NCBI GenBank assembly: GCA_029559035.1
Contig: JAKQCT010000021.1
Span: 1-55,415, forward strand
Length of the DNA: 55,415 bases
Source of the DNA: Acidobacteriota bacterium
Lineage (GTDB): Bacteria > Acidobacteriota > UBA4820
Reading direction: 5' to 3'
The first letter of the stretch is position 1. Every line of letters begins with the position of its first letter. A program made the translations under genes and the position numbers. Below the pieces are notes generated by a model. That model did not search any database, was not told the origin of the DNA, and worked only from the letters and a program-made list of their open reading frames with translations. Positions 11,356-51,725 of the stretch are shown here, piece after piece.

Positions 11356-13271
11356 CCGTCCCGCGCTCCTACGACATCTGGATGAAATACCTCGGTCCCG
11401 GGAGTCCGCTGTCTTGTAAACCTTACTACGAGTTCAGGAAGGACCAGGTCGAGCTGGCCGCCCATCTTGCCGAGGTCCTCGAAGGACAAGGCGTGACCCT
11501 TGCGGAGGCCGGCACCGGGACGGGAAAGAGCCTCGCGTACCTCCTGCCGGCGATAAACCTCCGCCAGCGGGTGGTCATCGCCACGCACACCAAGTCCCTC
11601 CAGGACCAGCTCGCCGAGAAGGACATCCCTCTCGCCGCGGAGATCCTCGGCAGGAGAGTCGACGCTCTCAGGGTTAAGGGGAAGGCGAATTATCTCTGCC
11701 TTTTCTATTACGACAGATTCAGGATGAACCCTCTCTTCAGGGACCCTCAGGAGATAGAATTCTACAGGATGGTGGAGGAGTGGATACCGCGGACCACCTT
11801 CGGAGACAGGAGCGAACTGAAGGATGTACCGGAGGAGCTTGACTTCTGGAACAACATAAGCGCTAGGCCGGAAAGGTGCTCCTGGAGCAGGTGCCCACGT
11901 TTCCAGGACTGTTATCTGCTCAAACTCAGGAGGGCCGCGGAGGCGGCGGACATAATAATCACCAACCACCACCTTCTTTTCGCCGACCTCAGCGTCCGCT
12001 CGAGAGGGGTGAACGCCTCGGTGCTTCCCGATTTCGTCAACCTCGTGATAGACGAGGCGCACGAAGCGGAAGACTCCGCGACCTCCTTCTTCGGCGTCAC
12101 CGTTTCGAAGAAGATGATCGAGGAGTGGGCCCACGACTGCGGCCAGGAGCTGAAGACATCAAAAAAAGCCAAGAGCCGCAAGCACCATCTCTCGCTGGAG
12201 CCCGAACTTTCCGACTTTTTCGGGAGGCTGCCGGGGGCCGCCGAGAGGAAAAGGCTTGCGCACGAGGACCTTTCCGGATCTGGCGAAGCCCTGGAGATGC
12301 TTGTCTCCAAGATGACCGTCTATCACCGCTCCCTTGAAGGCTCGCTTGACGAGGAGGCCCTGCTGAGTCTGGAAGCCAGGCTCCAGGTCCTCGCCGAATC
12401 TCTCCGTTTCGTCTTCTCGGAGGACGAGCGGAACTATGTCAGAAGCGTTGAAACAAGGGGAAAGAACGTAGTCCTGAACGCGAGCCCCGTCCTCGTCGGG
12501 CCGATGCTGAGGAAAAGCCTTTTCGAGAAGATCAAGAGCGGAGTGCTTACCTCGGCGACTCTTTCAGTGAACGGCTCGTTCGACTATCTGAAAGGCCGCC
12601 TGGGCGTGCCGACCGACAACTTCGAGATAAAGATAGAGAGCCCGTTCGATTACGGGAAGCAGGGGCTTTTCTATGTCCCCGAGACCTTCCCGGAGCCGAT
12701 GTCGAAGGAGTTCATCATCTCGGCGATGGACGCGATCGACAAACTGGTCCTCTATTCGAAGGGAAGAGCTTTCATCCTCTGCACGTCGATCAAGAACATG
12801 AACTCGATCCATGAAAGCCTGAAGGGGACGGTTCCTTATCCGCTCTTCCTGCAGGGGGAGAAGCCGAGGAACACGACGCTGGAGGAGTTCAGGGAGGCGG
12901 GGAACGGGGTGCTGGTGGCGACGAGCTCTTTCTGGCAGGGGGTGGATGTGCAGGGGGAGGCTCTCTCGCTGGTGGTGATCGACAAGATACCGTTCGCGGT
13001 GCCGGGGGACCCGATCATAGAGGCGAGGATCGAGGAGATCAGACAGAGGGGGGAGGACCCGTTCTCGACGTACCAGTTGCCGATGGCGGCGATGATACTG
13101 AAGCAGGGGATGGGGAGGCTGATACGGTCGAGGAGGGACCGGGGGGTCGTGGCGTGCCTGGACAACAGGCTGAGGAGGAAGGGCTACGGGAAGCGGATAC
13201 TCCAGAGCCTCCCGCCGTTCCCGCTCACTTCTGACCTTCAGCGGGTCAAAGCCTTCTTCGAAGAAAAGTAG
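11352..13271 (+). CDS. DinG/XPD-like ATP-dependent DNA helicase
   Basis: Superfamily 2 helicase of the Rad3/XPD type, 639 residues. Walker A is GTGTGKS (54-60) and the Walker B motif is DEAH (234-237). Four cysteines at about 116, 176, 181 and 187 fit the Fe-S cluster ligands of this family (NYLC, CSWSRC, DCY). The C-terminal helicase domain has the SSFWQGVDVQG and GMGRLIRS motifs. The start overlaps the upstream amidotransferase stop by 4 bases. It probably acts in unwinding damaged or R-loop DNA. Confidence 0.92.
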   Translation: MTVPRSYDIWMKYLGPGSPLSCKPYYEFRKDQVELAAHLAEVLEGQGVTLAEAGTGTGKSLAYLLPAINLRQRVVIATHTKSLQDQLAEKDIPLAAEILGRRVDALRVKGKANYLCLFYYDRFRMNPLFRDPQEIEFYRMVEEWIPRTTFGDRSELKDVPEELDFWNNISARPERCSWSRCPRFQDCYLLKLRRAAEAADIIITNHHLLFADLSVRSRGVNASVLPDFVNLVIDEAHEAEDSATSFFGVTVSKKMIEEWAHDCGQELKTSKKAKSRKHHLSLEPELSDFFGRLPGAAERKRLAHEDLSGSGEALEMLVSKMTVYHRSLEGSLDEEALLSLEARLQVLAESLRFVFSEDERNYVRSVETRGKNVVLNASPVLVGPMLRKSLFEKIKSGVLTSATLSVNGSFDYLKGRLGVPTDNFEIKIESPFDYGKQGLFYVPETFPEPMSKEFIISAMDAIDKLVLYSKGRAFILCTSIKNMNSIHESLKGTVPYPLFLQGEKPRNTTLEEFREAGNGVLVATSSFWQGVDVQGEALSLVVIDKIPFAVPGDPIIEARIEEIRQRGEDPFSTYQLPMAAMILKQGMGRLIRSRRDRGVVACLDNRLRRKGYGKRILQSLPPFPLTSDLQRVKAFFEEK

Positions 13272-13290: not shown

Positions 13291-13644
13291 GGCGCAGGCA
13301 AATCTGCTTTCGCAGATTATCAGAGCTTCCAGTCAGCCTCTCAGAAATGCAAGACATTTCCCGAGGCTTCCTCTCGCTCTTTCGCCGCCTTTTGGCGGCT
13401 TTGCCTGCGCCTGAAATAATTCCACACCACCCCCCCCACACTCGGCCATACGCCGACGGCTACGGGCCATATGCTGTGTCAGACTTCGGGATTTTCAAAT
13501 GCTCGATTTCTATATTATTCCGCTCGGTACGGAGCCCTCGCTGACTAGAAGCCAAGCAGTTGGCTTCAGATGCCTCCGGCTCGATCGCCTCATCTTCCTA
13601 GTATCTGCTCCATCGGCGTCTATGCGTCAGCGGCTCCGCCGCTG
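13291..13644 (+). repeat. Structured repeat family 1, copy A
   Basis: A non-coding element. The outer stem is GGCGCAGGC (13291-13299) with GCCTGCGCC (13403-13411), nine perfect pairs. Inside are a hairpin AATCTGC/GCAGATT (13301-13318), a two-part hairpin GCCTC..GAGGC and GAAATG..CATTTC (13336-13367) with CAAG in its loop, and GCCGCC/GGCGGC (13384-13399). Then come a C8 tract (13430-13437), ACGCCGACGG (13450-13459) able to pair 9 of 10 with CCATCGGCGT (13610-13619), TGTCAG (13477-13482), a hairpin GAAGCCAA/TTGGCTTC (about 13548-13567) and a terminal hairpin CAGCGGC/GCCGCTG (13628-13644). It ends 63 bases before the 128-residue orphan gene. It fills the 435-base gap after the helicase gene. Confidence 0.75.
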
Positions 13645-13706
13645 GGGCCGAAGTTTCTTATATCCTGCCAAGAAATGTGCTATCTTGATATCTGGGGATA
13701 TGGAGA

Positions 13707-14093
13707 ATGCGTGATAACAATAGGTGTATGCCCGAATTAATTGATACAATAAAAGAGAAAGAATTATTTTTCGGAATAGTCCGCCTCGAAAGAATGAATG
13801 AAACAGGTTATTTTAAATTTGGTGTTACATCTGCTGAGTATGTTGCGTGGAGAAAAATAGCTTCCTTGAAACCTTTTGACAACTTAAGTCGGGAATTAAT
13901 TAAATACTTTTTTTCACCGTGTACTTGGCGAATTGAGGGTAGGACATTTTGCAGGATTAGAATCGAGCAAGGCAAAGATGGAAAGGAATTCGACGTCCAG
14001 CTCCCGGAAAGATTAATCGCGAATTTGCTATGGTTTTTTGAGTTAGAATCGTTGGAAAAAGCCGATCACCTTCGTATAGAATTGAAAACATAA
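13707..14093 (+). CDS. Orphan AT-rich gene, unknown protein
   Basis: Unrecognised 128-residue protein. It has no signal peptide or membrane segment, and a mix of charged helices and strands (WRIEGRTFCRIRIEQGKDGKEFDVQLPERL). Base and codon use is far more AT-rich than its neighbours (ATA, AAA, TTA, GAA codons), which suggests recent transfer. It sits between repeat copies A (plus) and B (minus), with both 3' ends facing the gene. The ATG at 13707 has GGAG almost touching it; an internal ATG at 13728 (MPELIDT) is an alternative start that would give 121 residues. Confidence 0.65.
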   Translation: MRDNNRCMPELIDTIKEKELFFGIVRLERMNETGYFKFGVTSAEYVAWRKIASLKPFDNLSRELIKYFFSPCTWRIEGRTFCRIRIEQGKDGKEFDVQLPERLIANLLWFFELESLEKADHLRIELKT

Positions 14094-14147
14094 CAGAAAT
14101 AGATAAAATCACTTGTTTTTATTTAAGGGTGGTTGAAGCTTGGCAGG

Positions 14148-14442
14148 GCAAGCACCGCTTGCAGCGTCCCGACGCCGATGGGCGGCATGCGAGGAAGGCA
14201 AGGGGGACAAGCCCGACGTGTACTGTGATGTACTCGGAGGGTTTTGGACCCCGCAGGCTGACAAAGCAGTTCGCTCCATCGCCGTCGGCGCATGCATCGG
14301 GGTGGGGGGGTGGCTTGTAGTTTTTATGGCGCAGGGGAAGCTGAAAGCTGATCAAGGCGAGCATCAAGGCTCGGAGCGAGCTTGCTCGTTATAGGGCCTT
14401 GAGCGAAGCCGAAAAAGATGCGAAGGCATCTTTCCCTGCGCT
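14148..14442 (-). repeat. Structured repeat family 1, copy B (inverted)
   Basis: Same architecture as copy A, on the opposite strand. The outer arms are 14434-14442 and 14328-14336 (eight pairs plus one wobble). The hairpins are AAAGATGC/GCATCTTT (14414-14433), CGAG/CTCG (14377-14388) with CAAG in the minus-strand loop, and AGCT/AGCT (14339-14349) with a TTC loop. A C7 tract (G7 at 14304-14310 on plus) follows, then GCCGACGGCGATGG near 14277-14290, TGTCAG (14258-14263), GAGTACATCACAGTACAC (14218-14235, shared exactly with copy C), CCCATCGGCGTC near 14171-14182 and the terminal hairpin GCAAGC/GCTTGC (14148-14162). Together with copy A it brackets the orphan gene. It fills most of the gap before pyrG. 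Confidence 0.75.
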
Positions 14443-14517: not shown

Positions 14518-16170
<1,653 letters not shown>

Positions 16171-16979: not shown

Positions 16980-17941
16980 AGATGGAATTCAAAGCCGCAA
17001 GGAAGGTGCTTGAAACGGAAGTCAGGTCGGTGACGGAAGCCATGTCTTCGCTGGACGAGAGTTTCGGGAAGGCGATCGACATGATGCTGAGGTGCGAGGG
17101 CAGGGTGGTAGTGTCGGGCCTCGGAAAGAGCGGCCTCGTCGGAAGGAAGATATCCGCGACGCTTGCTTCGACGGGGACGCCCAGCTTCTTCCTGCACCCC
17201 TCCGAAGCGATCCACGGGGACCTCGGGATGCTGAGGAAGGGGGATGTTGTCCTGGCGCTTTCGAACAGCGGGGAAACGGAGGAACTGGTCAACCTCGTTC
17301 CGTTCCTGAAGAGGATCGGGGTTTCCGTCATCTCGATGACCGGGAACGGCGGGTCCTCCCTGGCCCTCAATTCTGACGTCCGCATTCTCGTGAGGGTCGG
17401 TGAGGAAGGATGCCCGCTCGACCTGGCCCCGATGGCTTCCACCACTGTCCAGATCGCGCTGGGCGACGCCATAGCCGCTGAACTGATGGAAAGGCGCGAC
17501 TTCAGGCGGGAAGATTTCGCGAAATACCATCCGGGCGGAAAACTCGGCAAGAGGTTCCTTAAACTGAAAGAACTCATGCACACGGGCGACGAGCTCCCGG
17601 TAGTCTCTCCGGGGACCCCGATGAAGGATCTTATCTACGTGATATCGTCGAAGAAGCTCGGCGTGGCGATCATCACCGACAGGGCGAACTTCCTTAAGGG
17701 GATAATCACGGACGGCGACCTGAGGAGGATGCTGGAGAAGTACGGGGGGGAGATCCTGCAGAGGTCGGCCATAGAATGCGCCAACACGAGGCCTCTCGCC
17801 CTCCAGGAGGAGGCTCTCGCGGTTGAAGCTCTCGGCGTCATGGAGGATAAAAAGGTGACTTCGCTCGCGGTCACGGACCCTGACGGAAAGGTTACGGGGA
17901 TCATCCACCTGCACGACCTGTGGCGGTTGCAGCTGATATAG
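16976..17941 (+). CDS. kdsD: Arabinose-5-phosphate isomerase (KpsF/GutQ family)
   Basis: Interconverts ribulose-5-phosphate and arabinose-5-phosphate, supplying the substrate of the preceding KdsA. The 321 residues comprise an SIS sugar-isomerase domain (about 30-165; VVVSGLGKSGLVGRKI, HPSEAIHGDLGML, LSNSGETEEL) and two CBS domains (about 205-255 and 265-320). The ATGA overlap with kdsA indicates one operon. The later steps (kdsC phosphatase, kdsB) are not in the window. Confidence 0.95.
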   Translation: MKMEFKAARKVLETEVRSVTEAMSSLDESFGKAIDMMLRCEGRVVVSGLGKSGLVGRKISATLASTGTPSFFLHPSEAIHGDLGMLRKGDVVLALSNSGETEELVNLVPFLKRIGVSVISMTGNGGSSLALNSDVRILVRVGEEGCPLDLAPMASTTVQIALGDAIAAELMERRDFRREDFAKYHPGGKLGKRFLKLKELMHTGDELPVVSPGTPMKDLIYVISSKKLGVAIITDRANFLKGIITDGDLRRMLEKYGGEILQRSAIECANTRPLALQEEALAVEALGVMEDKKVTSLAVTDPDGKVTGIIHLHDLWRLQLI

Positions 17942-17946
17942 GGTGG

Positions 17947-18288
17947 GCAAGCTTCGCTTCAATTGAAAATATTAAATTGAAAATTGAAAATTATAAAATT
18001 GAGGAATCTGTTTCCTTATTGACCTTCAGCTCTTCCGCCTTCAGCCTTCAGCTCCCGTGCAAGCTTCGCTTGAATTGAAAATTGAAAATTGAAAAGTGAA
18101 GATTGAAAAGTGAAAAGTTTAGGAATCAATTTCCTTGTTGAACTTCAGCTCTTCCGCCTTCAGCCTTCAGCCCTGCAGGCTGCGCCTGCATTGAAAAATG
18201 AAAGTTGAAAATTGAAAATTTTAAAATTGCGGAATCATTTCCTTATTGAACTTCAGCCTTCAGTCTTCAGCCCTGTAGACAGCCTTCA
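17947..18288. repeat. Repeat family 2 array, three units, after kdsD
   Basis: Three imperfect units of about 112-116 bases. On the plus strand each has a hairpin with a 3-base loop (GCAAGC/GCTTC at 17947, GCAAGC/GCTTG at 18059, GCAGGC/GCCTGC at 18175-18189). Then come several TTGAAAA/GTGAAAA heptads, a GGAATC..TTCC mini-hairpin, TTGAAC or TTGACC, and CTTCAGC heptads. Read on the minus strand, the first GCTGAAG begins at the TGA stop codon of the carboxypeptidase gene (18286-18288). The array fills the whole gap between the convergent kdsD and carboxypeptidase genes. TGAA and TTCA heptads could pair to form a long imperfect stem, perhaps acting as a terminator. Confidence 0.8.
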
Positions 18289-27273: not shown

Positions 27274-27376
27274 CACGGTGCCGGCCTTGCCGGAATCGAG
27301 AATATAAAATTGAAAAGTGAAAACTGCAAAATGGATGTAGGGGCTAACGGCTGTTCGCCCAATTAGCCATAGTAAG

Positions 27377-27662
27377 GGCGCAGGGCGATGCTGAGCATCT
27401 TGCCAGGCATCGCTTGAGTCTCTCTGTGAGCAAGCTCACTCGGAGCCTTCAGCTCGCCTTTGTCCGCCTTCGGCGCCCCCTGCTGCGCCACATAACATCC
27501 CCCCCCCCCCACCCAAACACACGCCGACGGCGACGGACCATCTACGTTGTCAGACATCGACGTCCGCATCCTCAGAGTACATCACAGTACACTTCCGGTG
27601 CGGCCGTCTCGTTTTCCTAGTAGCTGGCCCATCGGCGTCTATGCGTCGGCGGCTTCGCCGCC
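27377..27662 (+). repeat. Structured repeat family 1, copy C
   Basis: Same layout as copies A and B. The outer stem is GGCGCAG (27377-27383) with CTGCGCC (27483-27489). The hairpins are GATGC/GCATC (27387-27399), GTGAG-CAAG-CTCAC (27426-27439) and CGCC-TTC-GGCG (27465-27475). A C12 tract (27499-27510) follows, then ACGCCGACGG near 27531-27540, TGTCAG (27548-27553), GAGTACATCACAGTACAC (27575-27592), CCCATCGGCGTC near 27628-27639 and the terminal hairpin GGCGGC-TTC-GCCGCC (27648-27662). It ends 78 bases before the ankyrin gene. With the rocD promoter and a short TTGAAAA stretch near 27307-27320 it fills the 544-base gap. Confidence 0.75.
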
Positions 27663-27706
27663 GGGCTCAAATATTGGGCATTCTGCAAATTTCTACGATT
27701 TGGGAT

Positions 27707-27712
27707 TATAAT
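27707..27712 (+). promoter_or_regulatory. Possible -10 element of the ankyrin gene
   Basis: A perfect TATAAT 27 bases before the ATG at 27740 and 45 bases after repeat copy C. No convincing -35 box is seen. GGGGGAG directly precedes the start codon. Confidence 0.4.
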
Positions 27713-27739: not shown

Positions 27740-28549
27740 ATGTTGAAGAGAGTTGTTGCGCTGAGTCTGCTGATCCTGCTTCCTGTCGTCTCTTTTAACG
27801 CCAAAGGCAAGCCTATAAGTAAAAAAGAACTCAGAGAGTATTTTGCCGATGAAAAAGTTGTGGAATTGATCCTCGCCGCGAACAAGGGTGACATCAAGAA
27901 AATCGACTCGCTCGTGTCGCAGGGAGCGGATGTCAACTATATCGGAAAAGATAATGTGACCCCGCTTATTGCGGCATTTTCAAGTCTAAATATTAAGGGG
28001 TTCAAACGGCTGCTGGAACATGGCGCCAACCCTAATATCGCCACATCTGAAGGCGAATCCGTAATCTGGTTTGCGGCTATGGGTGGCGAAATCTCCAAGG
28101 AAACTCTTCCCTTCCTCGAACTATGCCTTCAGCACGGCGGAGACCCCAATTGGGTTTTCCGCAAACGATACGAAGATGGTGTCAATCATTTTGACGATGG
28201 TCGCCCGCTGATAGCTGCTGTGATCATGTACAATGAAAGGGCGATGGAGGCTTTGAAATTGCTGTTAAATTCCGGCGCTGACATAAATATGAAGGACAAA
28301 GATGGAAATAACGCTTTATGGCATGCCGCTGGCGGCCACTATGAAATTCTATTATATTTATTGCAAGCTGGTGCCGATTATGCTGCCAATAATAATTATG
28401 GGAGAAGCTTTATCTGGGATTTGGAAAAATCTCCAACGATCTCATTTGGCGACGAAAAAGATATGGCCCAACAGAAAGAATGGAAGAAAAAAGTCATCGC
28501 CTTCCTCAAAGAAAAAGGAATCGAGGTTCATCTTAAATATCCGGATTGA
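27740..28549 (+). CDS. Secreted ankyrin-repeat protein
   Basis: A 269-residue protein with a signal peptide (LKRVVALSLLILLPVVSF). At least four ankyrin units follow (VELILAANKGDIKKIDSLVSQGADVNYIG; NVTPLIAAFSSLNIKGFKRLLEHGANPN; LKLLLNSGADINMKDKDGNNALWHAAGGHYEILLYLLQAGADY). The exact target is unknown; periplasmic ankyrin proteins act as protein-binding scaffolds. The 3' half is clearly AT-richer than neighbouring genes, suggesting acquisition. Start 27740 is preferred over an upstream in-frame ATG because of the signal peptide and the GGGGGAG site; the longer form would read through repeat copy C. Confidence 0.85.
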   Translation: MLKRVVALSLLILLPVVSFNAKGKPISKKELREYFADEKVVELILAANKGDIKKIDSLVSQGADVNYIGKDNVTPLIAAFSSLNIKGFKRLLEHGANPNIATSEGESVIWFAAMGGEISKETLPFLELCLQHGGDPNWVFRKRYEDGVNHFDDGRPLIAAVIMYNERAMEALKLLLNSGADINMKDKDGNNALWHAAGGHYEILLYLLQAGADYAANNNYGRSFIWDLEKSPTISFGDEKDMAQQKEWKKKVIAFLKEKGIEVHLKYPD

Positions 28550-28620
28550 TCGAAATGTCTCCGTTTTGAATGTTAGCACTTCGATCTAATGTTTATCCTC
28601 CCCGCTCTTAAGGGCCACCC

Positions 28621-28683
28621 GTTTTGCTCAAGGGGACACGATCCCGATCCAAGAAGCCGAATCGAGTCATGTCCCCGCAAAAC
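28621..28683. repeat. Long two-part inverted repeat after the ankyrin gene
   Basis: GTTTTGC (28621-28627) and GGGGACA (28632-28638) are mirrored by TGTCCCC (28670-28676) and GCAAAAC (28677-28683), fourteen perfect pairs with a 4-base bulge (TCAA) in the left arm only. Inner CGAT/ATCG bases can extend it. The loop is about 30 bases. The T-poor flank makes an intrinsic terminator unlikely, and the form resembles REP-type palindromes. The rest of 28550-28805 shows no gene. Confidence 0.7.
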
Positions 28684-28805
28684 TTCGCACTTGCGTTCTT
28701 CCCGTCTTTCGCTTTTACCCTCATTTGCTATTTCCCATTTACCACTTAACTGGTTCTTCCGACCGCCTTCATTTATGGTAAAATTCTTGCGGGAGGAACC
28801 GGACA

Positions 28806-50605: not shown

Positions 50606-50696
50606 CGTAAGTCTTTTTCCAAGCAAAGTATTTGAAAGCATCTGTCATAATTAATCTTGATCCTTGAATTATCTTTAAACTTCAGCCGTCAGCCTG

Positions 50697-50888
50697 GCAG
50701 GCTTCGCCTGCATTGAAAGTTGAAAAATGAAGATTGAAAAGTGAAAAATTAAGGAATCATTTTCCATATTGACCCTTCAGCTTGGCAGGCTTCGCCTGCA
50801 TTGTAAATATTAAATCTGAAATTCTAAATTGCAAATTTGAGGAAACCATTTCTTTGTTGAACTTCAGCTCTTCAGCCATCAGCCATCA
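50697..50888. repeat. Repeat family 2 array, two units, before the YihY gene end
   Basis: Two units related to the array at 17947. The hairpins GCAGGC-TTC-GCCTGC lie at 50697-50711 and 50785-50799. TTGAAAA/GTGAAAA-type heptads follow, then GGAATCATTTTCC and GGAAACCATTTC mini-hairpins, and finally CTTCAGC and CATCAGC heptads. Read on the minus strand the array again begins at the TGA stop codon of a gene (yihY-like, 50886-50888). The unit spacing is about 88 bases and the A-rich part of the second unit is degenerate. It fills the gap between the YihY and nitroreductase genes. Confidence 0.8.
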
Positions 50889-51725
50889 GCCTTTTTTCTC
50901 CCCCAGCGCCCTCGCTATCTCGGCGCCGATCAGGAAGGCGATGTTCGAAACGTAGAACCAGATGAGCAGGGCCATCAGTGATCCCATCGCCGCGTAGACC
51001 GAGACGGAGACGGCTCTCGCGAAGTACCAGGTGAGGATGAAACGCCCTGCCAGGAAGAGCGCGGAGGCGAAGGTCCCTCCCACAGCCGCGGCCCTCCAGG
51101 GGACCTTTGCTCCCGAAAAAAGGCGATAGGACAAAGTGAACGCTATCCCGCCCACGATCAGGGACATCACCTCTTCGATCAGAACCGAATAGATGCCTCC
51201 GAAGAAGGGAAAGGCGGAAAAGAAGGCGTAAGCCCACAAGAGCAATATGGCGAGGGTTCCGTAAACGACGACGCCCGTCAGGGCGTGGCCCTTGCGCCCA
51301 AGGAAGCCCCTGAAACCTTCCCTGTCGGGGACGCCCCATATCCTGTGAAGCGCGAACCTCATCTCCTGGAAAAGCGACGACGAGCCCCAGAAGGCGATCG
51401 CGGCGCTGAAGATCAGGGGGTAGTGCCCGCCGTGCGTCTTCGCGTACGCAACGGCCCGTTCGAGAAGTCCCGCGGCCTCGGTCCCGATATAATACTGGAG
51501 ATGAACGAAGAGCTCTCCCTGCATGGCTTGCTTCCCGAAAATGATCGCCGCGATGTATGTTATGACGACCAGGAGCGGGGCGAGGGAGAGCGCGCCGAAG
51601 AACGAGAGTGAGGCCGCCAAGTTCGGCACCTTGTGCGCCGTGTATCCCCTGGAGACGTTCGAGAGGAAAGAAAGGAACCCGGCGCGATCTTCGGCCGTCG
51701 CCTTCTTTCCTCCCTTCGTCTTCAT
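50886..51725 (-). CDS. YihY/virulence factor BrkB-family membrane protein
   Basis: A 279-residue inner-membrane protein with about six helices, of the family once misnamed ribonuclease BN. It shows AHKVPNLAASLSFFGALSLAPLLVVITYIA, GSSSLFQEMRFALHRIWGVPDREG and the C-terminal SVYAAMGSLMALLIWFYVSNIAFLIGAEIARALGEKKG. The transported substrate is unknown. Its TGA stop lies in the repeat array. Confidence 0.9.
   Translation of the reverse strand: MKTKGGKKATAEDRAGFLSFLSNVSRGYTAHKVPNLAASLSFFGALSLAPLLVVITYIAAIIFGKQAMQGELFVHLQYYIGTEAAGLLERAVAYAKTHGGHYPLIFSAAIAFWGSSSLFQEMRFALHRIWGVPDREGFRGFLGRKGHALTGVVVYGTLAILLLWAYAFFSAFPFFGGIYSVLIEEVMSLIVGGIAFTLSYRLFSGAKVPWRAAAVGGTFASALFLAGRFILTWYFARAVSVSVYAAMGSLMALLIWFYVSNIAFLIGAEIARALGEKKG

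Follow-up and report, generated by a model that had tools for sequence, protein, structure and literature searches.

Inverted copies of a structured, MITE-like repeat at AT-rich passenger genes in an Acidobacteriota genome

Introduction

The stretch of DNA analysed here (55,415 nucleotides, contig JAKQCT010000021.1 of assembly GCA_029559035.1; hereafter the window) comes from an Acidobacteriota bacterium whose draft genome comprises 2.86 Mb in 99 contigs. Between two ordinary genes of the window, two copies of a repeat in opposite orientation enclose a small AT-rich gene. This arrangement raises the question of what the repeat is, and whether copy, gene and copy form a unit that moves together or the repeat serves as a leader for a gene that was acquired independently.

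Results and Discussion

Two inward-facing repeat copies around an orphan ORF

Between the gene for a DinG-like helicase, which stops at 13271, and pyrG, which starts at 14557, lie repeat copy A, one ORF and repeat copy B. Copy A (13291..13672, plus strand) starts 21 bp past the helicase stop codon and belongs to a subfamily with a long apical insertion. Its 5' domain (13291..13412, supported by the fold and by covariation of the domain) is closed by GGCGCAGGC...GCCTGCGCC, its 3' core hairpin (13447..13629) is matched by model R1 with 66.6 bits, and the motif TTTCTTATATCCTGCCAA (13654..13671) forms the -35-like end of the element. Copy B (14131..14442, minus strand; B subfamily) has its core hairpin at 14162..14294 (model R1, 119 bits). 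The 3' ends of both copies point inward and leave about 458 bp between them, which hold a single passenger ORF of 128 aa (13707..14093, plus strand), the 3' end of copy B being directed toward the 3' end of this ORF. Compared with dinucleotide shuffles, both copies are strongly folded (z -6.5 for copy A and -3.8 for copy B); their identity is only 57%, and they represent different subfamilies.

The passenger ORF is an orphan. A search of viral contigs did not yield a relative, and the sole match in 60 related genomes (E=0.005) was interrupted by stop codons. The structure prediction (pLDDT 43) was too poor for use. The original prediction, made from the sequence of the window, had correctly described an AT-rich orphan bracketed by inverted copies, with base use unlike its surroundings (GC 0.37 versus about 0.585 for the window) and with no transposase ORF in either copy.

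Architecture and fold of the repeat

The repeat is about 320 bases long and is present in its own genome in about 27 full and partial copies, far above chance. In a full copy, GCGCAGGG...CCCTGCGC closes a 5' domain of about 120 nt, from which a C-rich linker leads to a long 3' hairpin; a short hairpin and the conserved end TTTCAAnnATCCTGCAAA follow. The two structured domains of this three-domain architecture, the 5' domain and the 3' hairpin, covary. In 32 sequences from this genome and its relatives, 87.5% of the pairs of the 3' hairpin are kept, a percentage that is favoured by the choice of copy C as the reference structure. The double-sided changes are not favoured by this choice. They were found in 24 of the 37 pairs of the hairpin core, which none of 500 shuffles equalled, and the signal collapsed when the pairing partners were slid. 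In the 5' domain 13 of 26 pairs covary.

Since the hairpin is nearly palindromic, the core model also matches the opposite strand weakly, and both a DNA and an RNA reading are possible; the conserved G-U pairs lean slightly toward RNA. A known RNA family was rejected because Rfam gave no match at gathering score, and a search of the repeat against phage and plasmid records gave no match either.

A different repeat family is also present in the window (17930-18240, 50680-50890 and 27278-27333). It shows a hairpin of the GCAGGCTTCGCCTGC type, after which come runs resembling TTGAAAATTGAAAA, and it occurs in tandem pairs or triplets.

Polarity and passengers

Copy C (27378..27690, plus strand; C subfamily) has its core hairpin at 27518..27648 (model R1, 143 bits) and is followed by the gene for an exported-looking ankyrin-repeat protein of 269 aa (27740..28549, plus strand; Ank_4, 1.4e-19). 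The mechanically assigned start of this ORF, 27641, falls within copy C, and the likely ATG is at 27740. Hence copy C does lie upstream of the AT-rich ankyrin gene, as had been proposed, but the distance is 50 bp rather than 78. A palindrome, GGGGACACGATCC...GAATCGAGTCATGTCCCC, which resembles a REP-type hairpin, is located 3' of the ankyrin gene (28620-28700).

The same polarity is seen throughout the genome. In all 17 full-length copies the 3' side is lower in GC than the 5' side (P=1.5e-5), with means of 0.413 and 0.568, respectively, over 400 bp on each side; when partial copies are included, 24 of 25 follow this rule. The copies lie behind stop codons, usually starting no more than about 100 bp from the host gene, and the passenger ORF mostly begins 35-100 bp past the 3' end in the orientation of the copy. 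The passengers are mutually unrelated (ankyrin, carboxypeptidase-regulatory-like lipoprotein, HEAT repeats, HNH_5 and several without a family), and many have an N-terminal hydrophobic stretch.

The association is one-way: AT-rich DNA lies 3' of nearly every copy, whereas most AT-rich ORFs have no copy. In a 455-kb sample of the genome, 4 of 48 AT-rich intergenic ORFs touched the repeat family. The original prediction had noted that two of two foreign-looking genes do so, which is true for the window but does not extend to the genome sample. Its proposal that the element carries or targets passengers agrees with the AT-rich DNA 3' of all 17 full-length copies, but not with the majority of AT-rich genes, which lack the repeat.

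Two further regions were noted. One, G000:C99:40-75 kb (L237, L238), is long and AT-rich, contains many ORFs but not the repeat, and is possibly an integrated element. The passenger region of the unit at C74 (L062, G000:C74; 3236-4307) contains a transposase with an IS630-type split-frame look.

A predicted promoter at the 3' junction

At copy C a predicted promoter, CTGCAAA-N17-TATAAT (27683..27712, plus strand), spans the junction between repeat and passenger DNA, the end of copy C making up its first half. An exact TATAAT occurs within 40 nt past the 3' end in 7 of 24 copies (shuffle mean 0.64), and at four copies it stands exactly 17 nt after CTGCAAA. Genome-wide, CTGCAAA-N13-19-TATAAT has five matches, all at repeat units, and the reversed control has none. 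At one of the five (C20, L070) the leader is unlike the repeat in sequence, yet it is strongly folded (z -6.0) and has the same end. The -10 of copy A is weak. The junction promoters escaped a standard promoter scan, as their -35 does not resemble TTGACA. To judge from these motifs, the 3' end of the element probably supplies the upstream half of the passenger promoter, and the earlier suggestion that the repeat serves as a leader gains from this.

The leader at L070 (2785-3060) and that at L069 represent a second structured type. They have ATTCGACGCACGGC in common and end in the same CCTGCAAA/TATAAT junction.

Transposon hallmarks in related genomes

The core model found copies in most genomes of the same order and, with a patchy distribution, in the rest of the phylum (18 of 297 genomes); two members of the same family, G001 and G002, had none. 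In G004 and G006, sister-genus genomes of the same order, the repeat takes the form of a MITE-like element of about 390 bp with terminal inverted repeats CATGNCTGTCCAAAA at both ends; these repeats are enriched in G004 (80 matches versus 7). Direct repeats of 9 bp stand at a fixed position, exact in 5 of 11 cases and with one mismatch in 2 more. For two G004 insertions the orthologous site in G006 is empty, with continuous flanks. These features mark the repeat family as mobile in the sister genomes.

The copies in G004 and G006 carry no AT-rich cargo, and the GC polarity is absent at the 15 copies there. At one G006 locus the halves of a single element flank a gene of host-like GC that encodes an S53-type peptidase; no target duplication was found at this unit. 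An autonomous element or transposase with the same ends was not recognised among the ORFs of 20 stretches of G006, most of them beside unpaired terminal repeats. Of the terminal inverted repeats, only a weak TCAAnnnGCAGG resemblance is seen in the genome of the window.

Several related forms were encountered on the way. G006 (C3:22424-22551, C73, C74, C162 and others) contains short variants of about 128, 168, 222-295 and 756 bp whose ends are the terminal repeats of the 390-bp element. In G273, from another family of the phylum, weaker core matches (L160, L161) lie inside short elements with a terminal repeat of their own, CCGCATTTCTCACAG. The copies in G261 (L143-L150) consist of the core hairpin alone, without the 5' domain, and several are situated at most about 30 bp behind a stop codon.

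Do copy, gene and copy move together?

Pairs of full copies facing inward around unrelated AT-rich ORFs are also present at C99 and C43, and at C74 a full copy is paired with a partial one. A possible trace of an insertion is found at lpxH and rlmB. These convergent genes overlap by 18 bp in G007 and are 2132 bp apart in the genome of the window, with repeat, ORF and repeat between them. This empty site in gene order fits the insertion of a whole unit, the direction of gain or loss resting on one locus and on another family. An adjacency of lpxH and rlmB in G004 was dropped from the comparison, as the match sits in a wrong-frame N-terminal extension.

In the genome of the window, target duplications were found neither at the four pairs, A-B included, nor at seven single copies. 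Paired copies are 57-58% identical and come from different subfamilies, and no copy-gene-copy unit occurs at two sites in the genome. Two copies, L061 and L063m, share 93% identity up to sharp ends, whereas their flanks are unrelated. Thus the repeat can spread without cargo, being copied or converted alone. The adjacency of DinG and pyrG is absent in nine relatives; as gene order is not kept there, an empty site would be invisible. The neighbourhoods PolA-LolA and AsnRS-TPR are likewise not conserved.

Copies A and B with the enclosed gene had been likened to a composite unit, and target duplications around the 13.3-14.4 kb stretch were named as a means to check this. None flanks A-B. As an arrangement the composite unit stands, since it recurs at C99, C43 and C74 and is backed by the empty site at lpxH/rlmB; joint movement of A, gene and B gains no support, given the missing duplications and the different subfamilies of the two copies.

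Interpretation

The interpretation that we favour, tentatively and with close to even confidence, is that the repeat is a MITE-type non-autonomous element and that small passenger cassettes, located just downstream of ordinary genes, have its copies as their inward-facing ends. The structured element would be moved by a transposase supplied from elsewhere. It would come to lie with its 5' end abutting a host gene's stop codon and its 3' end toward an AT-rich acquired gene, to which the 3' end would contribute the upstream half of a presumably working promoter. Two inward copies would then enclose the passenger in the manner of a mobile insertion cassette, as at A-orphan-B, C99, C43 and, with a partial partner, C74, and the passengers probably arrived together with the elements. 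In the lineage of the window a MITE-like family would thus have become a polar boundary and promoter source for small AT-rich passengers, although movement as a unit was not seen when looked for.

It is also possible, though rather doubtful in our view, that the repeat is a domesticated promoter or insulator. It would spread alone and persist where it keeps a host gene apart from an AT-rich gene that was acquired independently, and it would drive the latter from its own 3' end; inward pairs would be two separate insertions at convergent gene ends. Such a history accounts for the near-identical copies L061 and L063m in unrelated surroundings, for the different subfamilies of A and B, for pairs without target duplications and for the promoter junctions at the 3' ends. 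The sister-genus copies without cargo and the many AT-rich genes without a repeat point the same way. However, it demands that element and passenger coincide repeatedly and independently at the same gene ends with constant polarity, and three events would be needed between the overlapping lpxH and rlmB. The leader at L070, with its different sequence and the same promoter end, is compatible with both the cassette and the domesticated repeat.

Copies directly behind stop codons, where insertions are tolerated, could also mean that repeats and foreign genes gather at safe sites behind gene ends with no link between them. This predicts random orientation, which is contradicted by the polarity of 17 out of 17 copies and the fixed spacing of the promoter; moreover, long gaps without the repeat have a GC content near 0.5, not 0.41. 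We therefore disfavour such accumulation as quite improbable. Least credible of all is an integron-like system with the repeat as a folded attC-type recombination site: diverse AT-rich single-gene cassettes, often for exported proteins, do lie beside a long imperfect hairpin, but of 17 copies none shows a defining core site, either GTTRRRY within its final 60 nt or RYYYAAC within its initial 60 nt, for which reason the attC reading was rejected, the copies are dispersed rather than arrayed and precede the gene instead of following it, and the sister copies have 9-bp target duplications.

The favoured cassette interpretation can be carried further, to a single-gene cassette system specific to this order, although we regard this extension as unlikely. 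In it the two-domain fold would be the inward end and would be required if the element is to move or its copies are to recombine, insertion would target host-gene 3' ends, and the passengers would be exchangeable, each provided with a ready promoter. If the cassette interpretation is right, the bacteria of this order would have a small, uncatalogued route to gain orphan genes and express them at once, and the polarity of the element together with the junction promoter could be used as marks for listing passenger genes automatically. A covarying structure inside a transposon also raises the question why a MITE keeps so elaborate a fold.

Comparison with known systems

Integron cassettes resemble the present units in their small size, in AT-richness, in carrying a single gene and in lying next to an imperfect hairpin, but here attC core sites and an array are absent and the repeat stands upstream of the gene. 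A composite transposon differs in that the flanking copies here encode no transposase, for which reason the composite-IS reading was rejected. The Correia repeat enclosed elements of Neisseria are able to make a promoter at their own end and to control adjacent genes (PMC2649163). The likeness to them is one of working only, namely a promoter formed at the end of a repetitive element; the present repeat is much longer, unrelated in sequence and from another organism, with a fixed polarity toward AT-rich passenger DNA and a promoter at the 3' end only.

The closest relations are to MITEs and to mobile insertion cassettes (MICs), as defined in the ISsaga paper (PMC3129680) and the paper on TIME elements (PMC4133298). 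Like MITEs, the repeat is small, multicopy and without an internal transposase, and the sister-genus copies, with about 390 bp, terminal inverted repeats, 9-bp target duplications, no ORF and empty sites, come nearest to them. Unlike MITEs, it has a two-domain structure kept by covariation across families, and the copies in the genome of the window lack target duplications. With MICs and other transposase-less IS derivatives (PMC3129680, PMC4133298), presumed to be mobilised in trans, it shares the passenger between inverted ends without a transposase, found at A-B, C99 and C43 and, with the second copy incomplete, at C74. In contrast to MICs, the ends are structured elements of about 320 nt and not short IS ends, the unit has no target duplication, a cognate IS was not recognised in the 20 stretches read, and the passengers are all different.

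We thus regard the family as a variant of the MITE or mobile insertion cassette kind and do not claim MIC membership, because the search for movement as one unit gave four pairs without target duplication and no unit present twice. Overall, the repeat has the look of a small and so far uncatalogued cassette system that carries extra genes and switches them on.
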